Source: an uncultured Alistipes sp.
GTDB taxonomy: Bacteria > Bacteroidota > Bacteroidia > Bacteroidales > Rikenellaceae
NCBI GenBank assembly: GCA_934754975.1
Contig: CAKVKI010000058.1
Coordinates: forward strand, 1-12,078
DNA: 12,078 nucleotides
Reading direction: 5' to 3'
Under the pieces are notes generated by a model. The model searched no databases, had not been told where the DNA came from, and was given only the letters and a program-made list of their open reading frames with translations. The translations under genes were made by a program, and so were the position numbers. Shown piece after piece: positions 1,662-11,267 of this stretch. Every line of letters begins with the position of its first letter. Within the stretch, counting starts at the first letter, position 1.

Positions 1662-1686
1662 AAGTTTAGAAAAAGTGTCCCGACCT

Positions 1687-1719
1687 CTTGACAAGGGGGT
1701 GTCCGCCGACGTATATTTG
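1687..1719 (+). promoter_or_regulatory. promoter driving the phage-like island
   Basis: TATATTTG at 1712-1719 matches the Bacteroidetes -7 box exactly. CTTG at 1687-1690, 21 bases upstream, supplies the -33 TTG core (it also forms part of TTGACA). A transcription start near 1726 would give a leader of about 115 bases before the first gene at 1843. This is the only clear promoter I see for the eleven genes, so they probably form one transcript. It is back to back with the mqnA promoter, with about 50 bp between the two -33 regions' outer ends overlapping only flanking DNA. Confidence 0.72.
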
Positions 1720-1769
1720 CATCACAATTCACACCGCACGGCACACAGTGCGCGGGTTATCAACATCGG

Positions 1770-1785
1770 GACAAAATTCTTTGTC
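1770..1785 (+). promoter_or_regulatory. leader hairpin of the island transcript
   Basis: GACAAA, loop ATTC, TTTGTC: a perfect 6-bp stem in the 5' leader. GGGAC at 1768-1772 can instead pair with GTCCC at 1787-1791, and the two pairings share bases and exclude each other. This could be a simple regulatory switch or just a protective stem; neither is demonstrated. Confidence 0.35.
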
Positions 1786-1842
1786 AGTCCCTTACGAATT
1801 GTTATTACCGTTTTTCAACAATCTTTCAAACATTTATCAACA

Positions 1843-2247
1843 ATGAATCGCACCCATCTCGAAGGTGCGGCGGAAGCGCTCGCGGCGCAGCAGGGATATG
1901 CCTTCCACACGGGACCCGAAGGCGACATGGCCCACACCGTGCGGAGTTATCCGGCGGCATGGCTCGCGCCCCTCGAACTGCACGCCGTCGAAGGACGCAG
2001 CCACGGCCGGGCGACGTACGACATGACGCTGCACCTGTTAAGCTCCGGCGCACGGCTCGCTCCGGCGGAGCGGCGCACCGTGCAGGCCCGCATGGAGGAG
2101 CAGACGCTCGAAATCTTCGCGGCGCTTTCGCTCGACGAACGGGTTCTCGCAGTCGAAAGGCTTTCGGTCCGTCCCCGCACCTTCGCACTCACGCCGCACG
2201 GCGAAATCTCGCAGACCGCCACCGCACGCATCGTAACCTTTTTCTGA
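1843..2247 (+). CDS. small phage protein, possible tail-completion/tail-terminator factor
   Basis: This 134-residue protein begins MNRTHLEGAAEALA. The frame is open further upstream to a GTG at 1675, but that stretch contains the promoter, so the ATG at 1843 (after TTATCAACA) is preferred. The protein has an N-terminal helix (4-18), a central segment RATYDMTLHLL (56-66), a long charged helix (74-104) and a beta-rich end, VRPRTFALTPHGEISQTATARIVTFF at 109-134. Small alpha/beta proteins of this size with paired strands at the end are common as tail-terminator or head-tail completion proteins in Bacteroidetes prophages, which is why I suggest that role. I cannot assign a family from sequence alone. 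It is the first gene after the island promoter and is followed by a structured 129-bp gap. Confidence 0.6.
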   Translation: MNRTHLEGAAEALAAQQGYAFHTGPEGDMAHTVRSYPAAWLAPLELHAVEGRSHGRATYDMTLHLLSSGARLAPAERRTVQARMEEQTLEIFAALSLDERVLAVERLSVRPRTFALTPHGEISQTATARIVTFF

Positions 2248-2261
2248 TTTCTTCCCTCTGA

Positions 2262-2330
2262 CGCCTTTGCGGCAGCCGCAGCCCCGCCCGGGTTTCGGGC
2301 ACAGCCCCCAAAGGATCGCCGCAAAGGGCG
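2262..2330 (+). repeat. inverted repeat with nested hairpin in the 2248-2376 gap
   Basis: CGCCTTTGCGGC (2262-2273) is complementary to GCCGCAAAG-GGCG (2318-2330) with one bulged G. Inside it, GCCCG (2286-2290) pairs with CGGGC (2296-2300) around a GGTTT loop. The whole gap could fold into one large stem in the RNA. It has no T-tract and lies between two genes on the same strand, so it looks more like an mRNA-processing, attenuation or inserted palindromic element than a normal terminator. Confidence 0.5.
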
Positions 2331-2376
2331 GCGGGACGCACCGCCGCCGCAACGACACTCCTCAAAACTCGATCCA

Positions 2377-3366
2377 ATGACATTCACACAAATTCCGCAA
2401 CAGTACGCTCCGCTCAGCGGAGAACTCCGCTACACGGTTACAGCCGCGGCGGCGGGGATGATCGACCTGCGCATCATCGACACCGGAAGCGCAAACCTGA
2501 TCGGCGCCAGGCGTTCGGCAGGCAGCGCATCGGCTTCATTCGACATCGCCCCCTGCCTGCGCCGCGCCATACGTTTCTCGCCCACGACCGGAAGCACCGG
2601 ATTTTACGTCACCGAAGGCCGCAGCATCGCGGCGGTCGTCGAAGCCGCGATAGCCCCGGCCGGAGAAACAATCCCGGCAGACGGCGACAACGCCGTCTCT
2701 CCGGAACGCACGTTCCTGGCCTGCCGGGACATCGCCGCCGCCCCAGCCCTGCTGACGGCCATGCCCCCGGACCGCCTGATCTCACCGGGCGAAAGCGACG
2801 AGCTGACGCTGCTCTGCGACGAAGCCTGCACCGTAACGGTCACGGCGCAGGCCGGGGAGAGCGCAACCGCCGAAAGTTACCGCACGAAAAGCGGCGGGAT
2901 GCTCGTTTTCCGGCTCGACACCCGTGATTTTCCGGACGCCGAAACCCTGACAGTGGACGCCGGGAAGTGCGGCACGGTCTCCTACACGGTCGTCCCTGCC
3001 GTTTCCGGCGCCCGCAGGCTCGCCTGGCGCAGCAGTGCGGGCAGTATCGAGCATTACACCTTTCCGATTGAGAAATCGGCGACCGTAGAGACCGCAAAGA
3101 GCCGGGCATACGGGACCGACGGCCACCTGACCGCCGCGGCCCGCACCGAACGGCGGATGACACTCGTATCGGCTTACGAGACCCGGACCGTGATCGAAGC
3201 CCTCAGCGAAATCACGGCTTCGCCCGAAGTCTGGCTGGCGGACGGCGACGGATATACGCCGGTCGACGTAACGACCCCGGCCGCTGTCGTACACCGCCAC
3301 GCCGCAGTGAGCTGTCTCGAAATCGAAATCCGTTCCAAACGCAAAATCCGCATGCCATGGAACTGA
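2377..3366 (+). CDS. phage tail-tip type protein (distal-tail-like position)
   Basis: The product has 329 residues, starting MTFTQIPQQYAPLSGELRY, and is almost entirely beta-type. The N-terminal sandwich (about 5-110) contains alternating short strands; the middle (about 115-205) has an Ig-like pattern including ESDELTLLCDEACTVTVTAQ; the C-terminal part (about 210-329) carries RRLAWRSSAGSIEHYTFP near 213-230. That last Trp-rich motif followed by YTF is recurrent in my memory of tail-associated proteins in Bacteroidetes phages. The partner gene downstream overlaps by 10 bp and looks like a baseplate hub, as in the usual distal-tail/tail-associated gene pair. Alternative roles are a fibre or receptor-binding base. 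There is no signal peptide or membrane segment, consistent with a virion protein. A structural role is fairly likely; the exact tail position is inferred. Confidence 0.62.
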   Translation: MTFTQIPQQYAPLSGELRYTVTAAAAGMIDLRIIDTGSANLIGARRSAGSASASFDIAPCLRRAIRFSPTTGSTGFYVTEGRSIAAVVEAAIAPAGETIPADGDNAVSPERTFLACRDIAAAPALLTAMPPDRLISPGESDELTLLCDEACTVTVTAQAGESATAESYRTKSGGMLVFRLDTRDFPDAETLTVDAGKCGTVSYTVVPAVSGARRLAWRSSAGSIEHYTFPIEKSATVETAKSRAYGTDGHLTAAARTERRMTLVSAYETRTVIEALSEITASPEVWLADGDGYTPVDVTTPAAVVHRHAAVSCLEIEIRSKRKIRMPWN

Positions 3367-5717
3367 AAATCGACGCAAAGCCGTGCGACCTCGGAACGGA
3401 GCGGATCGCCGTGCCGGGGTACGACGCCGCGAAACTCTCCGGCGTCGAAGCCGCCCGCGAAGGCCGTTCACTGACGCTGACCATTCCCGCAACGCCCCGC
3501 AACGACGCCCTGGCCGGATTCGCCCGCGATCCGCATGCCGCCGAGCGGTTCAACGCAGCGCCGCACACGGCGGAACTCTCGGCCGAAGGTTCCGTCATGC
3601 TGGCGGGAAGGGTCCGGATGCTGAGCGCGTCGGACGAAGGATACCGGATCGAAATCCGCGAGGGCGGCGCGGGCTGGGCCAAAAACGCCGCGCGGCGGAT
3701 GTTCAACACCCTCGGCGTCGATTACCGGACGGCCCTGGTTCCGCAGACGATCCTCGCAGGCTGGACGGACGATTCGCCCGTGAAGTTCTTTCCGATCCGC
3801 CGCGACGAATACCCGCAGCAGAACAGTTCGACGGACCTGCTTCCCGCCGAACGGCTCCTGACGGTAGACGATTACCACCCGTTCCTGCATGTGGCGACGC
3901 TCGTGGAGAGGATCTTCGCCGAAGCGGGCTACCGCATCGAAAGCAAATTCATGGAGTCGGAGTTGTTCCGGTCGCTCTACATGAGCGGCGCATACGCTTC
4001 GCGCGACACCGCCGCCCTGGCCGCCCGCATGGGCTTCTTCGCCCGCCGGCTGTCGCCCGCAACGGCGAAGGCCGATTACTCGGGCCGCGTATGGGCCAAT
4101 CCGAACACCGCGCTGAATTCCGTGGGAAACCTCGTCGAGACCGCCACGCCCCAGACCCCCGACGCCGACGGAGAGCCGATTCCCGAACTGAGCAACAACG
4201 GCGGCTGTTTCGGCTTCGACCGGGGCAACATCCTCTTTACCCCCGCGACCGAGGTGAGCGCCGGATTCGAATATTACCTGAAGTACACCACAGACCATGT
4301 GATCCAGAGCCGCCAGCGGCTCAAAGGGTTCGATTCGGTCGACCTCGACACGGGCGCCGACATGCGTTTCACGCTGGCCAACCGCTACGAGGACCGGCGC
4401 AATGCGATCGCTCCGAACCACGGTTACCTGGCGATCGTCTTCGACCACACCGCAGGACAGCAGTACCGCCTGATTTGCACAAAGGACGGAGCGTCGGATA
4501 CGCTCTGGGCGGAGTTTTCAGCCCGCACGGCGCAGGTCGTCACGCCGGGGTCGGGAAGCGTGGCGAATCCCGTGCTGCAGATCCGCAGCGGCGCCCGCTG
4601 GGTGCAATATGCCGGCGACTGGGCGCTGTACGACGGGTATATCACCGAACGGGGACAGACGACCGTCGAGCTGCGGGTGCGCACCGCCGCCGAGCGGCTT
4701 TCGCCCTCGTCGCCCAAATACTTCAACCGGATCTACTTCTACGGCGCCGAAGAGGGCATGTCGCTCACCCTGCACAAAGTCTGTTCGCTGCAGCCGCGCT
4801 TCTCGTCGGCTCCCGGATACGGATCGGCGATAACGTTCGCCGACGTGGCCCGGCACCGGATCCGGCAATCGGAGCTGCTCGAAGCGGTGCAACACCTCTT
4901 CAACCTGCGCTTCCACACCGAGCAGGCGACTGGGACCGTCCGGATAGAACCGGCGGACGACTTCTTCGCGGCAGGCCCCGCAGCCGACTGGCGGGCGAAA
5001 ACCGACTTCTCACAGCCCGTCGTGCTGGCGGACATCGCCCCCGAAGTCCACGAACGCCGCACCTGGGGATATTTGGCGGGCGACGGAGCCGTGACGCGTT
5101 TCGACGCCGAAGCCGGAAGCCCCTTCGGCCAATGGAGCGTCACGACAGACTCCTATGCGGCCAAGGAGGGTGAAAAGGAGCTTCGCAATCCGTTGTTCCG
5201 CCCCACGCTCAGTACGGCGGGAGAATATGCCAACGCCCCTTCGGCGCAGATCATGCAGGTCGGAGACCGCGACGACGCGCAGGAAGACGGCACCAACTTC
5301 ACGCCGCGCATCGTGCGCTTCGCGGGCATGCACCCCCTGCCCGGCGGCGAGCGGTGGGGATTTCCGTCGGGACAGGCGGAATATCCCCTCGCGGCGTTCC
5401 ACTTTGCCGGGGACGGTGCGGCGGCGGGATTCACGCTCTGCTTCGAGGACCGCGACGGGGTGCGGGGCCTGCACCGCTATTATGACCGGCAGACAGCCCA
5501 AGAGTCCGCAGGCCGGCGCATCACCCTCTCGCTGCAGCTCGCGCCCCACGAATTCGAAAGCCTTTTCACACCCGGAACGGGAGCGCCCGACCTGCGTTCG
5601 ACGTTCCTGCTCGACACGGGGGAAGGGACGGTCCGCGCAACCCTCCATGCCGTCGGCGATTACGATCCGGAAGCAGTTTCCGTCCGCTGCACCTTCACCC
5701 AACTCCCCGACGCATGA
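3357..5717 (+). CDS. large phage tail protein (tail-associated/baseplate-hub-like)
   Basis: At 786 residues this is the largest protein of the window. The N-terminal about 110 residues (MELKIDAKPCDL... to YRIEIREGGAGWAKNAA) form a beta-rich domain reminiscent of tail hub proteins. A segment near 168-195, VDDYHPFLHVATLVERIFAEAGY split across strands and helix, is a recurring mark of large tail proteins in Bacteroidetes prophages. The middle is beta-rich, and near residues 690-710 is FEDRDGVRGLHRYYD, also typical of these proteins. It overlaps the preceding tail gene by 10 bp and shares ATGA with the next gene, so translation is probably coupled. It would sit at the tail tip and contact the host envelope. 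I see no peptidase or glycosidase active site. It could equally be a tail spike base. Confidence 0.65.
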   Translation: MELKIDAKPCDLGTERIAVPGYDAAKLSGVEAAREGRSLTLTIPATPRNDALAGFARDPHAAERFNAAPHTAELSAEGSVMLAGRVRMLSASDEGYRIEIREGGAGWAKNAARRMFNTLGVDYRTALVPQTILAGWTDDSPVKFFPIRRDEYPQQNSSTDLLPAERLLTVDDYHPFLHVATLVERIFAEAGYRIESKFMESELFRSLYMSGAYASRDTAALAARMGFFARRLSPATAKADYSGRVWANPNTALNSVGNLVETATPQTPDADGEPIPELSNNGGCFGFDRGNILFTPATEVSAGFEYYLKYTTDHVIQSRQRLKGFDSVDLDTGADMRFTLANRYEDRRNAIAPNHGYLAIVFDHTAGQQYRLICTKDGASDTLWAEFSARTAQVVTPGSGSVANPVLQIRSGARWVQYAGDWALYDGYITERGQTTVELRVRTAAERLSPSSPKYFNRIYFYGAEEGMSLTLHKVCSLQPRFSSAPGYGSAITFADVARHRIRQSELLEAVQHLFNLRFHTEQATGTVRIEPADDFFAAGPAADWRAKTDFSQPVVLADIAPEVHERRTWGYLAGDGAVTRFDAEAGSPFGQWSVTTDSYAAKEGEKELRNPLFRPTLSTAGEYANAPSAQIMQVGDRDDAQEDGTNFTPRIVRFAGMHPLPGGERWGFPSGQAEYPLAAFHFAGDGAAAGFTLCFEDRDGVRGLHRYYDRQTAQESAGRRITLSLQLAPHEFESLFTPGTGAPDLRSTFLLDTGEGTVRATLHAVGDYDPEAVSVRCTFTQLPDA

Positions 5718-5977
5718 TGACCCGGCATGAAAAACAACTGGCCGCGACCCTGCTGCGGGAACTCGGCAATCTGAGGGGCCAGCGGGCCGTCGAACGGCTG
5801 TTCGAGCTGGGACTGGTCGATCTGCGGGCCTGCGAACAGCGGGCCATCCGCCGCGAAATCGAACGGCTGGCCGCAGAGGGCGTACCGCGGTGCGAAGCCA
5901 TGCACGCCACGGCCGAGTTGTTCTGCTGTTCCTACGAAAAAATCCGCAACTACTATTACAACTCGTACAAATCCTGA
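5714..5977 (+). CDS. small helical protein with possible helix-turn-helix
   Basis: This 87-residue, almost wholly helical protein starts at ATG 5714, overlapping the stop of the hub gene (ATGA); a second ATG follows directly at 5717. Residues 57-80 (VPRCEAMHATAELF, then CCSYEKIRNYYY) have the spacing of a helix-turn-helix: a helix, a short turn around Cys71-Ser73, and a recognition-like helix. The N-terminal half is rich in Arg/Glu/Leu and may form a helical pair. It stops 3 bases before the protease gene. I do not recognise a named family. Candidates are a small terminase-like DNA-recognition subunit, a late-gene regulator, or a structural adaptor. The four Cys are scattered (Cys40, 60, 71, 72) and do not form an obvious zinc finger. 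Confidence 0.6.
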   Translation: MMTRHEKQLAATLLRELGNLRGQRAVERLFELGLVDLRACEQRAIRREIERLAAEGVPRCEAMHATAELFCCSYEKIRNYYYNSYKS

Positions 5978-5980
5978 AAC

Positions 5981-6856
5981 ATGAAATCGGAAATTCAAAT
6001 CGACAACAACGCCGGCGTCTGCCGCATCGACATCGAAGGCACGATCGGCGTGCCCGAAGAGTGGCAGTTCGAAGAGCCCGAAGCGCGCGTGGCCACTTAC
6101 GAAAAATTCCGCGGCGCCGTACGCCGCATCGCCGAAATCGACGCGCCCGAAGTCGTGGTCAACATCCGCTCGACGGGCGGCGACGTGAACGACGCGCTGC
6201 TGATCCACGATGCGCTCACGGCGCTCGGCGCACACATCACGACCCGTTGTTACGGGTACACCGCTTCGGCGGCGACGATCATCGCGCAGGCCGCTTCGCC
6301 CGGCTGCCGCGAAATATCGGCCAACGCCCTCTACCTGATCCATACGGCCGTCTGCGCGACCGAGGGAAACGCCGCGGAGCTGACCGGAAAACTCGACCTC
6401 CTGCGCCAGACCGACACGCGCATCGCCGCGGTCTATGCCGCCCGTTCGGGACGTCCGGCGGCCGAATTCGAGATCCTGATGGCCGAGAACAGCGGCAACG
6501 GCCGCTGGCTGTCGCCCGAAGAGACCGTCGCGGCCGGTCTGGCCGACGTCGTAACCGATGCGGCGGGGCATCGCGCGCCCTCGCTGACGCAGAATATCGC
6601 CCGGGGCTGGGAACGCCTGCTCGCCCGCATCGGTCTCAGCTCCGCAGAGAGCCTGCCCGCAGACCGCAACGTCCTCCACACCGGAAGCGAGGAGCAGGAG
6701 ATGCTCCGCCGCTCGGCCGCGGCAGTACAGCAGGCCCAGCAGCGTGTCGCTCCCACGCAAACCAAACCCCGCGAGGACCCCTCTTACGGGAACCTCGCGC
6801 AGACGGCCAACCAGCGCGCCTACTCCGAAGACGCAAAGCGTTTACACAACATTTAA
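5981..6856 (+). CDS. ClpP-like phage prohead maturation protease with disordered C-terminal tail
   Basis: The 291-residue product carries a ClpP/crotonase-type serine protease core in residues 1-200. VVNIRSTGGDVNDALLIHDAL (59-79) is the Gly-Gly oxyanion segment; GYTASAATIIA (92-102) contains nucleophile Ser96; ALYLIHTA (116-123) contains His121. The Ser-His distance of 25 equals that in ClpP. Asp145 (QTDTRIAAVYAARSG) is the likely acid. In phages this family cleaves scaffold and capsid N-termini during head maturation, and its place directly before the capsid gene fits. Residues from about 215 on are low in hydrophobics and rich in Gln/Ala/Arg and may act as a fused scaffolding domain. The capsid gene follows after 67 bp. 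An independent cellular Clp role is unlikely given its neighbours. Confidence 0.85.
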   Translation: MKSEIQIDNNAGVCRIDIEGTIGVPEEWQFEEPEARVATYEKFRGAVRRIAEIDAPEVVVNIRSTGGDVNDALLIHDALTALGAHITTRCYGYTASAATIIAQAASPGCREISANALYLIHTAVCATEGNAAELTGKLDLLRQTDTRIAAVYAARSGRPAAEFEILMAENSGNGRWLSPEETVAAGLADVVTDAAGHRAPSLTQNIARGWERLLARIGLSSAESLPADRNVLHTGSEEQEMLRRSAAAVQQAQQRVAPTQTKPREDPSYGNLAQTANQRAYSEDAKRLHNI

Positions 6857-6923
6857 CCCAGGAAGAGTCCCACCGAAGAAAAGGCTCTCCGATCATTCAA
6901 ACAACCCCAAAATCATTTCAACC

Positions 6924-7901
6924 ATGAGTTTCTTAGAAAGCGCCAAACAGTACACCGGCTCCGACCTCGAAAACATCTTTTTCCGTCCCATCCTGAGCGG
7001 CCCTTCGGCCGGCGAGCTGGGCGTAAGAGTCCTCTACAACATGCCCGTCCCGACGACCATCCAGCTCTGGGAAGGACAGCGCAACGTCCTCCAGAAATAC
7101 ACTGCCGCAGGGTGGTCCGGGGGCAGCGCCGCCAACAAACTGCAGAAAACCATCGCCCTGAGCCGCGTGAAGGCCGAGCTGGGATTCTCGGCCGCCGACT
7201 ACTTCTCGCTGGTATACGAGAAAATCGCGGCCCGCGCCGACGTCAATATGGACGACCTGACGGGCAGCGAGCTGGAACTGGCCGAAACCTCGCTCTTCAA
7301 GCAGGCCATCGCCGAGGGAATCCGCGCCACGATGTGGGTCGGCGACACGACGGCCGCTTCGGGTTTCAACACCTTCGACGGCTTCCTCAAAAGCGTCAAG
7401 GCCGGCGCCGAGCAGGAGCGGTTCCACAATTCGATCTACGAAGCCGCCGACTTCACCAATCCCCAAAAGATCGTCGCGATCCTCGACGACCTCTGGCAGA
7501 ACGCCGACGAACGTATCAAGGACCGCAAGGCCGAAGGCCAGCTCGCCTTCTTCGTCACCTCGGATCTCTACTACGCCTACGAAAAGTACCTCGACAGCAA
7601 GGGCGCCGACGCGGCCTACGCCGAAAGCACCAACGGCCGTCAGGGGCTGGCCTACCACGGCATTCCGCTCGTCGACGTCCGTCTGGGGGCCTATTTGGCC
7701 GACACCTCGCTCCACAAGTCGTTCTGCCTGCTGACCGACCGCCGCAACCTCGTACTGGCCGTCAATACGGCCGATTTTCCGGGCAACGAAGTGCGCATGT
7801 GGTACAATCCCGACCTGATGGAGAACCGACAGCGCGCCGTCTTCATGGCCGGCTGCGACGTGATCGACGAGACGATGCTCTCTTACGCATTCCGGGTATA
7901 G
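6924..7901 (+). CDS. phage major capsid protein (HK97-fold type, inferred)
   Basis: The start ATG at 6924 follows an AT-rich leader ending TTTCAACC. The frame is open further upstream, but that part overlaps the protease gene out of frame and is Arg/Pro/Thr-rich, so it is not coding. The product has 325 residues: an N-terminal helix (1-16), an extended arm (20-60) with MPVPTTIQLWEG, and a mixed alpha/beta core. LVLAVNTADFPGNEVRMWYNPD at 276-297 is followed by RQRAVFMAGCDVIDETMLSYAFRV at 303-325. Ending on strands that describe a state of the protein after 'F-x-A-G-x-D' is typical of capsid proteins in Bacteroidetes prophages. Its location after a prohead protease and near a portal supports the call. 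A separate scaffold gene is absent; the protease tail may supply it. The fold itself is inferred. Confidence 0.8.
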   Translation: MSFLESAKQYTGSDLENIFFRPILSGPSAGELGVRVLYNMPVPTTIQLWEGQRNVLQKYTAAGWSGGSAANKLQKTIALSRVKAELGFSAADYFSLVYEKIAARADVNMDDLTGSELELAETSLFKQAIAEGIRATMWVGDTTAASGFNTFDGFLKSVKAGAEQERFHNSIYEAADFTNPQKIVAILDDLWQNADERIKDRKAEGQLAFFVTSDLYYAYEKYLDSKGADAAYAESTNGRQGLAYHGIPLVDVRLGAYLADTSLHKSFCLLTDRRNLVLAVNTADFPGNEVRMWYNPDLMENRQRAVFMAGCDVIDETMLSYAFRV

Positions 7902-7903
7902 CG

Positions 7904-8401
7904 ATGACAGCGTCCACACCCCGCAAACCCGCCGGCGGCATCACGGCCGCCGCGATCACCCCCGCAGGAAATCTCCTGCGGGCGGCGCTGGGGGCCGACG
8001 GGCGCGCCGAAGCGGTGTTCCGCGACGGGACGCTGCTCACCCAACTGCCGCTCGCCGAACAACGCTCCTCCTACTCGGAGCTGAGCGACACCCAAGCCGG
8101 ACCGCAGCGTGTGCGCCATACGCTGACGCTCGTCATCGGCCGCGAAACAGCCCGTACGCTTCTCACCCCCTCATTCCGCCGCACGGCCGCAACCGACGGA
8201 CTGATCGCGACCGTCACGGCCGCATCGGGCGAGCGGCTGCTGATCGGCTGGTCGGCCCGGCTGGGCATGGAACAACCGCTGCGGCTCGGCTCGGTGAGCA
8301 ACGAATCGGGCATAAAGCCCCTCGACGGCACGCCGGTCGTCCTGACCTTCACCTGCGAAGACGCCGACCCGGCCCCGGAACTCAAACAACAGGAACCATG
8401 A
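7904..8401 (+). CDS. beta-rich virion candidate between capsid and portal
   Basis: This 165-residue protein starts 2 bases after the capsid stop and overlaps the portal start (ATGA). The Pro/Ala-rich N-terminus (1-20) precedes strands with RVRHTLTLVIGRETA (69-83), GLIATVTAASGERLLIGWS (99-117) and a C-terminal MEQPLRLGSVSNESGIKPLD near 122-141 followed by PVVLTFTCED. The motif of a Ser/Gly-rich turn, a Pro-Leu-Asp and then a final strand is familiar to me from small structural proteins in Bacteroidetes prophages, but I cannot name a family. Its position between capsid and portal suggests head decoration, a tail tube subunit or a connector. No membrane helix or signal peptide is present. Confidence 0.6.
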   Translation: MTASTPRKPAGGITAAAITPAGNLLRAALGADGRAEAVFRDGTLLTQLPLAEQRSSYSELSDTQAGPQRVRHTLTLVIGRETARTLLTPSFRRTAATDGLIATVTAASGERLLIGWSARLGMEQPLRLGSVSNESGIKPLDGTPVVLTFTCEDADPAPELKQQEP

Positions 8402-9630
8402 GTAAAAAACAGAAAATCAAACCGGCCGTCGCGGTGGCCAACCGCGCGGCCGACCCTTATGTCGCGCTCGGCGCGGGACGTGTCGAAAGCGACAAATTCT
8501 GGCGCTGGGGCGACGACAACCTGTTTCCCAATGCGCTGGCGCTGATGGCCCGCCGTTCGGTGACCCACCGCCGCATCATCAACGACAAGGCCGACTATAT
8601 TTCGGGCAAGGGTTTTACGTGCGACGAAGCGCAGCAACCCCTGCTGGCGGCTTTCCTGCGCCATGTAAACGGCGACGGCGAGAGCCTGCGGCAGGTACTC
8701 AACAAACTGGCGTTCGACAAGGCGCTCTTCGGCAACGCCTTCCTCGAAGCGGTGACCGACCCCGGACATACGTTCCTCGCACTGCACCACCAGGACGCTT
8801 CGCGCTGCCGCCTGGCCCGCGATTCGGCCCACGTCCTGCTCCACCACGACTGGGCGGCGTTCAAGACAGCCGAAGCGCGGACACTCCCCCTTTACCCGGC
8901 GTTCGAACGGCAGGCCGACGGCACGCTGCGCGCCATAATCCATTACAAGGACTACGAACCGACGTTCGAGCATTACGGCGTGCCGCCCTACATCGCGGGG
9001 TTCAACGTCTCGGCCATCGCCTACAAGACCGATAAATGGAACATCTCGCGGCTCGACAATTCGTTCCAGCTCTCGGGCGTGATGATGCTCGACAGCACGG
9101 TAGACAGCGAAGCCGAAGCCGAACGCATCGTGCGGCTCGCCGAGCAGAAATTCGCGGGCAGTCCCGGACAGGTGATGTTCGTCATCCGCGACGGCGGCGA
9201 GCAGAACGACAATTCGCGCTTCATTCCGATCGCATCGCAGAACGAGGGCGACTGGCAGGCGCTGCACCAGCAGGCCGTGTCGGATATCGTCGTGGCACAC
9301 TCGTGGTTCCGGACGCTGAGCGGACTGGACTATGCTTCGGGATTCAGCGCCGAACGCATCCTGCACGAATACGAGGTGGCCCTCAACACGGTCATCCTCG
9401 GCGAGCAGGCCGAACTGACCGAGCCGATCCGCCAGATCATAACGGCCGTACTCGGTCCGGACACCTCGTCGCTGCAGATCGTAAACCGCCCGCCGACACG
9501 CTCCAAGCCGATCTACATGAAGGTCTGGGAGGCCCGCAAGGCCGACGGACTGGATTACGACCCGGACGACGAGCGCCAGCAGTCATTCCTGTCGGAGATC
9601 ACGAAGTATAATATCAGGAGCATAGATTGA
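8398..9630 (+). CDS. phage portal protein
   Basis: The 410-residue product overlaps the preceding gene by 4 bp. Visible portal features are RWGDDNLFPNALALMARRS (36-54), a helical segment HRRIINDKADYISGKGF (57-73), and the classic FDKALFGNAFLEAV (106-119) followed by LHHQDASRCRLAR (129-141), the strand where portal proteins name the residue types they bind. A long helix near 230-250 and a Gln-rich loop come before VAHSWFRTLSGLDYASGFSAE, and the tail is highly charged. Portals form a dodecameric ring at one head vertex through which DNA enters and leaves. The length fits the Bacteroidetes phage portal family. The portal comes after, not before, protease and capsid, which is unusual. A 369-bp non-coding segment follows. 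Confidence 0.85.
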   Translation: MSKKQKIKPAVAVANRAADPYVALGAGRVESDKFWRWGDDNLFPNALALMARRSVTHRRIINDKADYISGKGFTCDEAQQPLLAAFLRHVNGDGESLRQVLNKLAFDKALFGNAFLEAVTDPGHTFLALHHQDASRCRLARDSAHVLLHHDWAAFKTAEARTLPLYPAFERQADGTLRAIIHYKDYEPTFEHYGVPPYIAGFNVSAIAYKTDKWNISRLDNSFQLSGVMMLDSTVDSEAEAERIVRLAEQKFAGSPGQVMFVIRDGGEQNDNSRFIPIASQNEGDWQALHQQAVSDIVVAHSWFRTLSGLDYASGFSAERILHEYEVALNTVILGEQAELTEPIRQIITAVLGPDTSSLQIVNRPPTRSKPIYMKVWEARKADGLDYDPDDERQQSFLSEITKYNIRSID

Positions 9631-9656
9631 TTTCGGACAGTTATCACGCTTTCCGT

Positions 9657-9782
9657 CGCTGTTGTCGCGGCATACTGCCGCGTTTACAAGTCTGACCCGC
9701 CCCTAAATCCCCGCCTCGGCGGGGACTTGTTGCACGCGACGTAAGATGACGCAAAGGTTGTCCTGTTTTTCCCGCTCCGGCA
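9657..9782 (+). repeat. 126-bp tandem repeat, copy 1, with two hairpins
   Basis: First of two near-identical units in the 369-bp gap between the portal and connector genes. It contains hairpin A, CGCGGCA-TAC-TGCCGCG (9666-9682, perfect 7-bp stem), and hairpin B, CCCCGCCTCGGCGGGG (9709-9724, perfect). Neither is followed by a T-run, so terminator function is doubtful. No coding frame with any protein character covers the unit. It may be a dispersed palindromic repeat family, a packaging or processing element, or an untranslated regulatory RNA. Confidence 0.75.
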
Positions 9783-9907
9783 CGCTGTCATCGCGGCATA
9801 CTGCTGCGTTTACAAGTCTGACCCACCCCTGAATCCCCGCCTCGGCGGGGACTTGCCGCACGCAACCAAGACGACGCAAAGGTTATCTTGTTTTTCCCGT
9901 TCCGGCA
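9783..9907 (+). repeat. 126-bp tandem repeat, copy 2 (125 bp)
   Basis: It aligns end to end with copy 1 with 13 substitutions and one single-base gap, about 89 percent identical. Hairpin A (9792-9808) keeps its stem through a G-T wobble, and hairpin B (9835-9850) is unchanged. Every substitution is a transition under the best alignment. The unit borders are arbitrary, because similarity weakly continues upstream of copy 1 (GTTATC...TTTCC near 9640-9654). Confidence 0.75.
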
Positions 9908-9945
9908 CGCTGTTGCCGCGTTGGCAACTCTGACACCCCCGCGGG
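9908..9945 (+). repeat. degenerate third copy of the tandem repeat
   Basis: It begins CGCTGTTGCCGCG like copy 1 and later matches TCTGAC, but 13 bases covering the second half of hairpin A are missing. A different stem, GTTGCC (9912-9917) with GGCAAC (9923-9928) around GCGTT, takes its place, and hairpin B is reduced to the CCCGCGGG palindrome (9938-9945). The rest of the gap up to the ATG at 10000 is A/C-rich leader with no clear promoter. Confidence 0.55.
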
Positions 9946-9999
9946 AACTTCTGCGCCGCTTTCAGCGACATTCGAAAATTCATCCCAATTACAACAACC

Positions 10000-10473
10000 A
10001 TGAACACACTTATCACCCCCGCACAGGTCGTCGCGCTGGCCTTTGCCGACGGGGAGTATCTCGCGCCGGAGAGCGTCACGCAGAGCGACATCGCCGCGGC
10101 CGAACAACGCTATGTCGTCCCGGTCATCGGGCGGCGGCTGTATGAGAAGCTTCTCGCAGGCTCGCATGCCGGCTTCACGACCGAATACCTGACCGCTCCG
10201 GCCGCGCTTTTCACGCGCATCGCCCTCCAGCCGCGGCTCGACGTCCGCACCGGGCCGTGCGGCACCGTCGCGCCCAAATCCGCCGCTTACCAGCCCGCCG
10301 GCACGCAGGCTCTGCGCGAACTGCAGCGGAGCCTGCGCCGCCAGGCCCGGACGCTGCTGCGCCGCGCCGCCGCACACCTCGAAGCGCATGCCGCCGAATT
10401 TCCGGAATACGACCCGCACGAGAACATCCTCAACCGCTGCACGACCGATGGAAACTTTGTACAGACTCGTTAG
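10000..10473 (+). CDS. head-tail connector type phage protein (DUF6712-like)
   Basis: This 157-residue protein starts at ATG 10000 after ACAACAACC. It is mainly helical: ITPAQVVALAFADGEYLAPESV (5-26), SDIAAAEQRYVVPVIGRRLYEKLL (29-52), then FTRIALQPRLDVRTGPCGTVAPKSAAYQP (71-99) and a long Arg-rich helix RELQRSLRRQARTLLRRAAAHLEAH (106-130) ending in ENILNRC. The order 'arrives at P-x-I-G-x-x-L-Y, a Gly-rich loop, then a long final helix' matches what I recall of the DUF6712 family, found next to capsid genes of Bacteroidetes phages and thought to be gp6-like adaptors below the portal. The final 26 bp overlap the holin gene. Adaptor function is inferred from location and fold pattern. Confidence 0.65.
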   Translation: MNTLITPAQVVALAFADGEYLAPESVTQSDIAAAEQRYVVPVIGRRLYEKLLAGSHAGFTTEYLTAPAALFTRIALQPRLDVRTGPCGTVAPKSAAYQPAGTQALRELQRSLRRQARTLLRRAAAHLEAHAAEFPEYDPHENILNRCTTDGNFVQTR

Positions 10474-10873
10474 CGGCGCGGCGGCGGGGATCGCCGCCCT
10501 GTTCGCCCCGATCGGGCCGCTCGTGGCCTGCGCCGTGGTCTTCATCGGCATCGACTTCCTGTCGGGCGTCGCGGCCAGCCGCGCCGCGGCCCGCCGCGAA
10601 GGCCGTGCATGGTACTTCGAGAGCCGCGAAGCATGGCGCACGATCCTCAAGCTGGGCCTCACCATTACGGCGATCGCCATGGCGTGGCTGATCGACAGCT
10701 GCATACTCGGTTTTATGAATCTGAACGTCGCACGGCTCTTTACGGGCTTTACGTGCGGGGTGGAGCTGTGGTCGTTCCTCGAAAACGCGTCGCAGCTCTC
10801 CGACGCCCCGTTGTTCCGCTGGCTGCGCCGCTACGTCCGCCGCCGCATCCGGAAGGAGGCGGGCGATGAGTAG
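10448..10873 (+). CDS. phage holin family membrane protein
   Basis: The chosen start is ATG 10448 (METLYRLVSG), inside the end of the connector gene; an earlier in-frame ATG at 10388 would add 20 polar residues and a deeper overlap. The product has 141 residues with about four hydrophobic segments near 5-20, 24-44, 66-89 and 94-111. It carries IDFLSGVAAS (35-44), WYFESREAWRTILKL (55-69) and ELWSFLENAS (106-115), marks of the Bacteroidetes phage holin family (Phage_holin_4-like), and a basic tail RRYVRRRIRKEAG. Holins open the inner membrane so that the lysin reaches the cell wall. The 8-bp overlap with the lysin gene supports a lysis pair. Confidence 0.83.
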   Translation: METLYRLVSGAAAGIAALFAPIGPLVACAVVFIGIDFLSGVAASRAAARREGRAWYFESREAWRTILKLGLTITAIAMAWLIDSCILGFMNLNVARLFTGFTCGVELWSFLENASQLSDAPLFRWLRRYVRRRIRKEAGDE

Positions 10874-11267
10874 GGGGCTGAGCAACCGCAATCCCGGCAA
10901 TATCCGGCAGTCGGCGGTCCGCTACAAAGGCGAGGTGCGGCCCTCGCGCGACCCGGCGTTCAAGCAGTTCGAATCCATGCCGTGGGGGTACCGGGCGATC
11001 TTCGTCCTCCTGGACACCTACCGCATCCGCCACGGACTGAGGACCATCCGGGGCATGATCTCGCGCTGGGCCCCGCCTTCGGAGAACCATACGGAAGTCT
11101 ACATCCGCGCAGTCTCCGACGCCGTGGGCATTGCCGACGACCGTCCGGTCGACACCCGCGACCGGACGACGATGCTCCGCATGGCGGCGGCCATTTCGCG
11201 GGTGGAAAACGGCACGGAGGCCGATATGGACGACGTGGAACGGGGCTGGGAGCTATTTCGCCAATAG
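10866..11267 (+). CDS. P5-like phage cell-wall lysin
   Basis: The 133-residue product begins RGLSNRNPGNIRQS, the Asn-Pro-Gly-Asn-Ile signature (residues 9-13) of the 'structural protein P5'-like family, followed by FESMPWGYRAIFVLLDTY (35-52) and RWAPPSENHTEVYIRAV (67-83). Proteins with this pattern occur as virion-bound or secreted muralytic enzymes of the lysozyme-like fold. Glu73 in SENHT is a conserved acidic candidate, but I cannot prove catalysis from the sequence. No signal peptide is present, so export would need the holin. It overlaps the holin by 8 bp and is the last gene of the island. Alternatively it is a virion protein that digests peptidoglycan on entry. Confidence 0.75.
   Translation: MSRGLSNRNPGNIRQSAVRYKGEVRPSRDPAFKQFESMPWGYRAIFVLLDTYRIRHGLRTIRGMISRWAPPSENHTEVYIRAVSDAVGIADDRPVDTRDRTTMLRMAAAISRVENGTEADMDDVERGWELFRQ

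Follow-up and report, generated by a model that had tools for sequence, protein, structure and literature searches.

The window analysed here, a stretch of 12,078 nucleotides (nt) from an uncultured Alistipes sp. of the Rikenellaceae (assembly GCA_934754975.1, contig CAKVKI010000058.1), holds a block of eleven intact phage genes on a single strand, which runs from an ATG at 1843 to 11267 in the open-reading-frame list of the window. corA and mqnA flank the block on the opposite strand, and the gene downstream is presumably comEC-like, with a sub-threshold DUF4131 match (27.0 vs 31.6 bits). This block, and the stand-alone terminase locus of related genomes, are the subject of the present analysis. 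The features of the block, with protein lengths in amino acids (aa), are:

1688..1719, + strand, operon promoter, TTGACA ... TATATTTG
1843..2247, + strand, g1, 134 aa, putative tail terminator, from a weak hhalign profile match to a phage gene (87.4%, 57 columns) and its joint loss with g7
2377..3366, + strand, g2, 329 aa, immunoglobulin (Ig) domains and a weakly distal-tail-like part, putative role; predicted local distance difference test (pLDDT) score of the model 92.3
3357..5717, + strand, g3, 786 aa, tail-tip hub by the hub fold of its model, with an inserted jelly roll at residues 219-484
5714..5977, + strand, g4, 87 aa, no family match of note in Pfam and PHROG scans
5981..6856, + strand, g5, 291 aa, ClpP-type head maturation protease (Pfam 5.7e-23; phrog_94 3.9e-34)
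6924..7901, + strand, g6, 325 aa, major capsid-like protein (phrog_1623 virion structural 7.1e-10; phrog_212 major head 6.4e-4)
7904..8401, + strand, g7, 165 aa, putative major tail tube protein, from a weak match to a phage gene at the equivalent place (89.9%, 59 columns)
8398..9630, + strand, g8, 410 aa, portal protein (Pfam Phage_portal 3.9e-11; also matched by a portal PHROG)
9657..9920, + strand, spacer between portal and g9, holding two direct-repeat copies at a distance of 126 nt (84 nt at 90% and 53 nt at 87%)
10000..10473, + strand, g9, 157 aa, DUF6712 (Pfam 2.6e-7), putative head-tail connector
10430..10873, + strand, g10, 147 aa, holin (Pfam Phage_holin_4_1 1.5e-12)
10866..11267, + strand, g11, 133 aa, endolysin-like (phrog_873 endolysin 1.7e-43)

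A first-pass annotation of this DNA had described eleven open, tightly packed genes with no broken frame, and a block without integrase, terminase, replication or repressor genes. The open frames were confirmed, all on the same strand and with profile-supported phage functions, and Pfam and PHROG profile scans of the eleven block proteins gave zero matches to an integrase, a terminase, a replication protein or a repressor. The tight packing applies to most of the block, but not to the 369 nt between the portal and g9, and the start of the first gene had to be moved from 1675 to the ATG at 1843, because homologues begin there and 1688-1719 is a conserved promoter. The sole tape-measure match in the block was that of g11, to the muralytic-type part of a tape-measure PHROG, and no tRNA was found in the window. 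Searched by sequence against solved structures, the profiles of g1, g3, g6, g7 and g9 gave no credible match (none at all for g1 and none of note for g7). The g2 model matched the phiCD508 needle chain 9g8s_S (root-mean-square deviation 4.1, E 1.8e-3), ranked behind generic Ig proteins; its VIA structure list was likewise filled by generic Ig-domain proteins.

The promoter is shared with related loci. Its boxes, CTTGACAA-N16/17-TAT.TTTG, were assigned in 57 of 66 sequences, the window included, and a stricter pattern with at most one mismatch gave 62 matches in 60 of 250 genomes, against 0 for the reversed-pattern control. The same promoter also recurs upstream of an AAA_25-type ATPase gene in four genomes (G154, G188, G218 and G253; three of the four ATPase genes were scanned with Pfam). 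These places (loci L206, L207, L208 and L213) might represent a third member of the regulon or a promoter shared with a mobile element, and no convincing gene was seen downstream of the recurrences in G010 and G123. The portal-g9 spacer also holds a CCCCGCC...GGCGGGG stem. In L001, the nearest relative of the window, g9 follows the portal after about 85 nt, leaving no room for the spacer repeats.

A portal scan with one genome per species, from which the best 80 of 147 relatives were kept as loci, revealed that the block genes found at each locus are collinear on one strand in 80 out of 80 cases, and this shared gene order establishes that the block is more than a chance assembly. The putative connector g9 was present in all 80 loci and the capsid gene g6 in 79, and g4 was profile-detected in 44 of the 80, with contig ends possibly accounting for some of its absences. 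In a portal alignment search, with family assignment based on record titles and NCBI ranks of the loci, the portal was found in 227 of 250 Rikenellaceae genomes evenly drawn across the family (6 with two matches) and in 7 of the 295 genomes sampled from the order; G002, G034 and G051 among these seven also belong to the family sample, and the other four are likely non-family. The portal is about as common across the family as recA, our completeness yardstick, which was found in 178 of 200 genomes; some recA-positive genomes, e.g., G016, G024 and G026, are without portal. Most of these genomes are metagenome drafts, so that gene absences are partly missing sequence, and related genomes are not independent of each other. 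The block is far from confined to one strain, the situation that the first-pass annotation had named as speaking against a domesticated element, and extends over the family. Fragments of it have also been catalogued as viruses, in IMG/VR (L081-L085, L105-L107) and in GenBank as 'Bacteriophage sp.' (MT838736, MT838805).

Upstream sequence of more than 9 kb before the portal was available for 57 loci; on the opposite strand there, 43 have corA, 34 have mqnA and 13 have neither. A comEC-like match follows the block in 23 of the 70 loci that extend far enough downstream. In the proposed comparison of synteny at mqnA-comEC, the site is the same in most loci but not in all. In L106 and L124 (the latter in G051), the block lies near what is presumably rnhB instead of mqnA, pointing to other sites or to host rearrangements. 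A phage satellite or mobile element that borrows its missing functions from a helper, also suggested at first pass, would be in line with this variation of the site between some lineages, with the absence of integrase and replication genes from the block and with the fragments catalogued as viruses. We nevertheless regard it as highly improbable, given the near-universal presence of the block, usually as one copy per genome, the same upstream neighbor corA in 43 of 57 loci, and the agreement of the portal tree with that of an unlinked chromosomal gene (see below). Besides, no integrase was matched in the block, the mobility feature of a satellite was not found, and this explanation is already disfavored.

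The ratios of nonsynonymous to synonymous substitution (dN/dS) between the window and L001 ranged from 0.088 to 0.57, with nine of the eleven genes at or below 0.27, g7 at 0.38 and g4 at 0.57; g5 was about half alignable in this pair, possibly due to a frameshift in the L001 draft, and the comEC-like gene, which did not align properly, was left out of account. In six further pairs, block genes gave dN/dS values of 0.01-0.45 where dS was unsaturated. The block is under purifying selection, and this check, which had been proposed together with the domesticated particle, supports it. Room for the whole block was available in 58 of the 80 loci. Considering six core genes (g2, g3, g5, g6, g8 and g9), every one of them matches at least 85% of its model in one frame in 42 of these 58 loci, 14 are short in the protease alone, several because only its front part matches, and the remaining two, L015 and L030, have lost part of g3. 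In L015, an A. senegalensis draft, most of g3 and g5 is gone and there is no holin or lysin match, and L030 has a partial g3. Single in-frame TAG codons were also seen in otherwise full-length genes, affecting the portal in G145 and G147 and the terminase in G146 and G208; they could be early decay, errors in the drafts or amber readthrough.

These stop codons, the damage in L015 and L030, the loss of the tape measure and the absence of g1 and g7 in 31 of the 58 loci (see below) are what would be expected from a prophage that was fixed in the family ancestor and is now eroding. On the other hand, dN/dS at or below 0.27 in nine of eleven genes already disfavored such decay, 56 of 58 loci are without gross core-gene loss, the promoter is conserved and the prevalence is recA-like, and we consider this explanation very unlikely. 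Strain-to-strain pseudogenisation, the other observation that was to count against domestication, came down to gross gene loss in the two loci mentioned.

As a property of the organism, and not just of the block, the lack of a terminase is not supported, as relatives hold a conserved stand-alone terminase at another locus. As a probe for this gene, phrog_2 gave one or two weak matches per genome in 10 genomes, mostly one, in frames mainly of about 240-450 codons; two of the three places read look like what we take to be PhoH, and phrog_2 was set aside for PF03237. The latter matched in 78 of 101 family genomes, once in 74, mostly weakly and in frames of 389-734 codons, and another terminase family, PF03354, in 8 of 101. 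PF03237 lacks specificity for the element, with matches in 6 of 14 control genomes as well, and was replaced by an alignment search. Thirteen of the 14 PF03237 places read are closely related full-length large terminases, scoring 761-923 bits against a model built from eight of the 13, and the fourteenth (L135, 509 bits) looks prophage-like by its neighbors. Two members match phrog_38 at 8e-85 and 1e-85 and, weakly, a T7-type terminase RNase H domain; against solved structures, the terminase profile gave only weak terminase matches (E 0.02 and 0.08).

The genome-wide check for a large terminase, suggested at first pass and carried out in relatives with an alignment of seven members at E <= 1e-40, found it in 225 of the 250 portal-scanned genomes, 16 of which gave two or three matches. 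Of the 295 order genomes, 9 had it, and three of these 9 also belong to the family sample. Portal and terminase occur together in 216 genomes, the portal only in 11, the terminase only in 9 and neither in 14 (Fisher p 8e-11, kinship uncorrected; 3 and 5 of the negatives were deduced rather than read directly). The portal and terminase trees of 38 genomes that have both genes largely agree (Mantel r 0.913, with 0 of 2000 permutations as high), share 23 of 35 splits (shuffled mean 0.275, maximum 2) and give an identical nearest neighbor for 27 of the 38 genomes. The terminase motifs PPQHGKS, LDDLY, VFTRWH and ESNNGGRGFAR are invariant in these genomes, and dN/dS was 0.075-0.27 in the 12 closest pairs among 20 terminases.

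In all 19 terminase loci examined with their flanks, a divergent CI/LexA-like helix-turn-helix (HTH) repressor adjoins the terminase, and upstream of it a protein of about 95 aa is encoded in 17 loci and a small terminase in 2. Two repressors that were scanned contain HTH and Peptidase_S24 domains and match phrog_4. The conserved genes seen at this second locus are the repressor, the small protein, sometimes the small terminase, and the large terminase, with none for integration or replication. The terminase is also preceded by a motif, found in 23 of 180 genomes with a single occurrence per genome; by coordinates, 21 of the 23 occurrences coincide with a terminase (G126 and G176 are unmatched). 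In G051, g1 is preceded at a distance of 4 kb by the repressor and the terminase, the latter on the strand of the block, and this arrangement suggests that both loci derive from a single prophage.

Operon and terminase might instead have been kept for separate host roles (e.g., programmed lysis for the one and DNA processing for the other), with no DNA-filled particle being formed. The loci are usually far apart, as among 11 genomes with both on one contig and with coordinates listed the distance was 13 kb, 19 kb and, in the other nine, 48 kb-2.6 Mb; besides, the promoter motifs differ between the loci and a shared operator was not found. Speaking against such repurposing are the co-occurrence and tree agreement of portal and terminase, the adjacency in G051 and the fact that selection acts not just on the lysis genes but also on capsid, portal and protease, and we judge it quite unlikely.

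The origin of the block is illustrated by G014 (IMGVR_UViG_3300001596_000105), a 37.6-kb phage record with a head module in the order of the block and a portal that is 44% identical. Its order is a g3-like gene (hhalign 97.7%), the tape measure, a gene of 91 aa in the g4 position, protease, capsid, a g7-like gene (89.9%), a small gene and the portal, followed by a gene at the place of g9, an amidase, a holin and an integrase. Both terminase subunits, a g1-like gene (87.4%) and a DnaB-type helicase lie further upstream. Read from these gene orders, the block corresponds to the G014 layout minus the tape measure and packaging genes; G014 differs from it in carrying a tape measure, both terminase subunits, the DnaB-type helicase and the integrase. 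The g2 profile did not match a 398-aa phage gene. The stand-alone terminase was also considered as G014-type and rejected, as its profile failed to match the G014 terminase. A viral scan with the stand-alone terminase returned 461 relatives, the best 80 of which are 27-33% identical over their best segments.

We propose that the block in the window is the operon for head, tail tip and lysis of a split element of the Rikenellaceae, ancient and for the most part passed on vertically, that resembles a gene transfer agent (GTA). We consider this explanation probable on balance; the particle is possibly short-tailed. Genomic features of a GTA were found in the phage-derived head and portal genes kept by descent, in the lack of integration and replication genes in the element and, in relatives and unlinked to the block, in a large terminase of its own with intact motifs. 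With no genes for replication or integration, the particle could not propagate itself, and the selected function would most likely be the transfer of host DNA to kin. Inactivation of the S24-type repressor, e.g., in an SOS response, would release the packaging module; the capsid would be assembled and then matured by the ClpP-type protease, and the terminase would load chromosomal DNA through the portal. The neck end would be occupied by the hub (g3 and probably g2), whether a short tube is present or not, the holin and lysin would burst the producer cell, and the hub would bind a recipient among kin. The domesticated particle of the first-pass annotation is retained here as a family-wide, usually single-copy and collinear element with a conserved promoter under purifying selection, GTA-like or possibly killing, and stripped of the missing terminase and of the satellite. 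We call it GTA-like rather than a GTA because it is known here from genes alone, and packaging and transfer need particles.

Several observations weigh against this proposal. Neither particles nor packaged DNA nor transfer have been observed, and the terminase is known from relatives and not from the window's own genome. There are 11 genomes with a portal and no terminase match and 9 with the reverse, part of the block is lost in L015 and L030, and the 14 of 57 loci without corA upstream show that the chromosomal site is not identical everywhere. No tape measure was found: in 66 loci, g3 and its downstream neighbor are separated by at most 302 nt, so that an RcGTA-type tape measure within the structural cluster is absent. 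Its lack, noted at first pass, holds at the block and extends elsewhere as far as one PHROG family, since phrog_3336, the best family for the G014 tape measure and the only one tested at unlinked loci, matched in 6 of 61 genomes; a divergent tape measure may still lie at an unlinked locus. The putative tube (g7) and terminator (g1) are jointly missing in 31 of the 58 loci, with the tail-tip hub kept, and together with the missing tape measure this means that DNA delivery by the particle is open to doubt. A study of three stool donors, in whose total DNA Rikenellaceae were abundant, assigned 23 of 25 GTA-like packaging events to Ruminococcaceae, Oscillospiraceae and Christensenellaceae, with family differences not significant (PMC12946183). 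These data weigh against a highly active GTA.

The same tail genes bear on a particle like PBSX of Bacillus subtilis, which would package host DNA or form empty capsids and would kill or release lysis products with no gene delivery. It would be consistent with the missing tape measure, with the 31 loci devoid of the putative tube and terminator, and with the retention of the lysin and of a hub with a putative receptor-binding insert. The intact terminase motifs, the purifying selection and the co-inheritance with the portal, on the other hand, imply that DNA loading itself is selected. Sequence cannot decide between GTA delivery and PBSX-like killing, and we hold the latter to be unlikely, although the likeliest of the rivals. 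Within the GTA-like proposal, we tentatively suggest, as a possibility that we would not yet favor, that the tail is being dismantled in a family-wide Bacteroidota GTA with a stand-alone, repressor-controlled terminase: the tape measure would have been lost before the spread of the family, tube and terminator would have been lost together repeatedly, and the hub would be docked on the portal neck. If true, living species would show a GTA on its way from a long-tailed to a tail-less form. The paired absence of tube and terminator with the hub kept offers a natural series for asking how little tail DNA delivery needs, and the stand-alone terminase cautions that block-by-block prophage annotation can mislabel such elements as 'defective' when parts of the machine lie elsewhere.

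GTAs are known from few lineages, and a literature search conducted largely without subscription papers found no description of one in Rikenellaceae or Alistipes. What marks the element as a variant is its separate terminase under a dedicated repressor, the lack of a tape measure and the shaft genes being absent together. The main cluster of RcGTA, from Rhodobacter capsulatus, holds both terminase and tape measure, unlike the Rikenellaceae element, in which no tape measure was found and the terminase is unlinked, with a repressor of its own. The tail of PBSX is complete. The g3 model gave a weak Foldseek match to the RcGTA chain 6tba_8A (E 4.2e-3). RcGTA resembles the element in that phage head, portal, protease, terminase and hub are kept vertically in a host where they do not replicate (PMC7947584). 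PBSX, likened by description, is a chromosomal defective-phage particle that packages host fragments (PMC12946183).

The closest system in kind, likened by description and not by sequence, is FpGTA of Faecalibacterium (PMC12946183). It belongs to a gut commensal, has structural genes distributed over two chromosomal loci and a holin with an endolysin, is near-ubiquitous in its own genus and has no identifiable tails (PMC12946183). It differs in phylum and in having the terminase inside the main operon with portal and capsid, and its particles and 8.4-8.9 kb host fragments have been observed, whereas the Rikenellaceae element is read from its genes (PMC12946183). FpGTA was called the first GTA of the human gut microbiome in that 2026 study (PMC12946183), and if Rikenellaceae carry a GTA-like element almost universally, the gut would have a second such lineage, from a different phylum, and Alistipes a possible route of gene flow.

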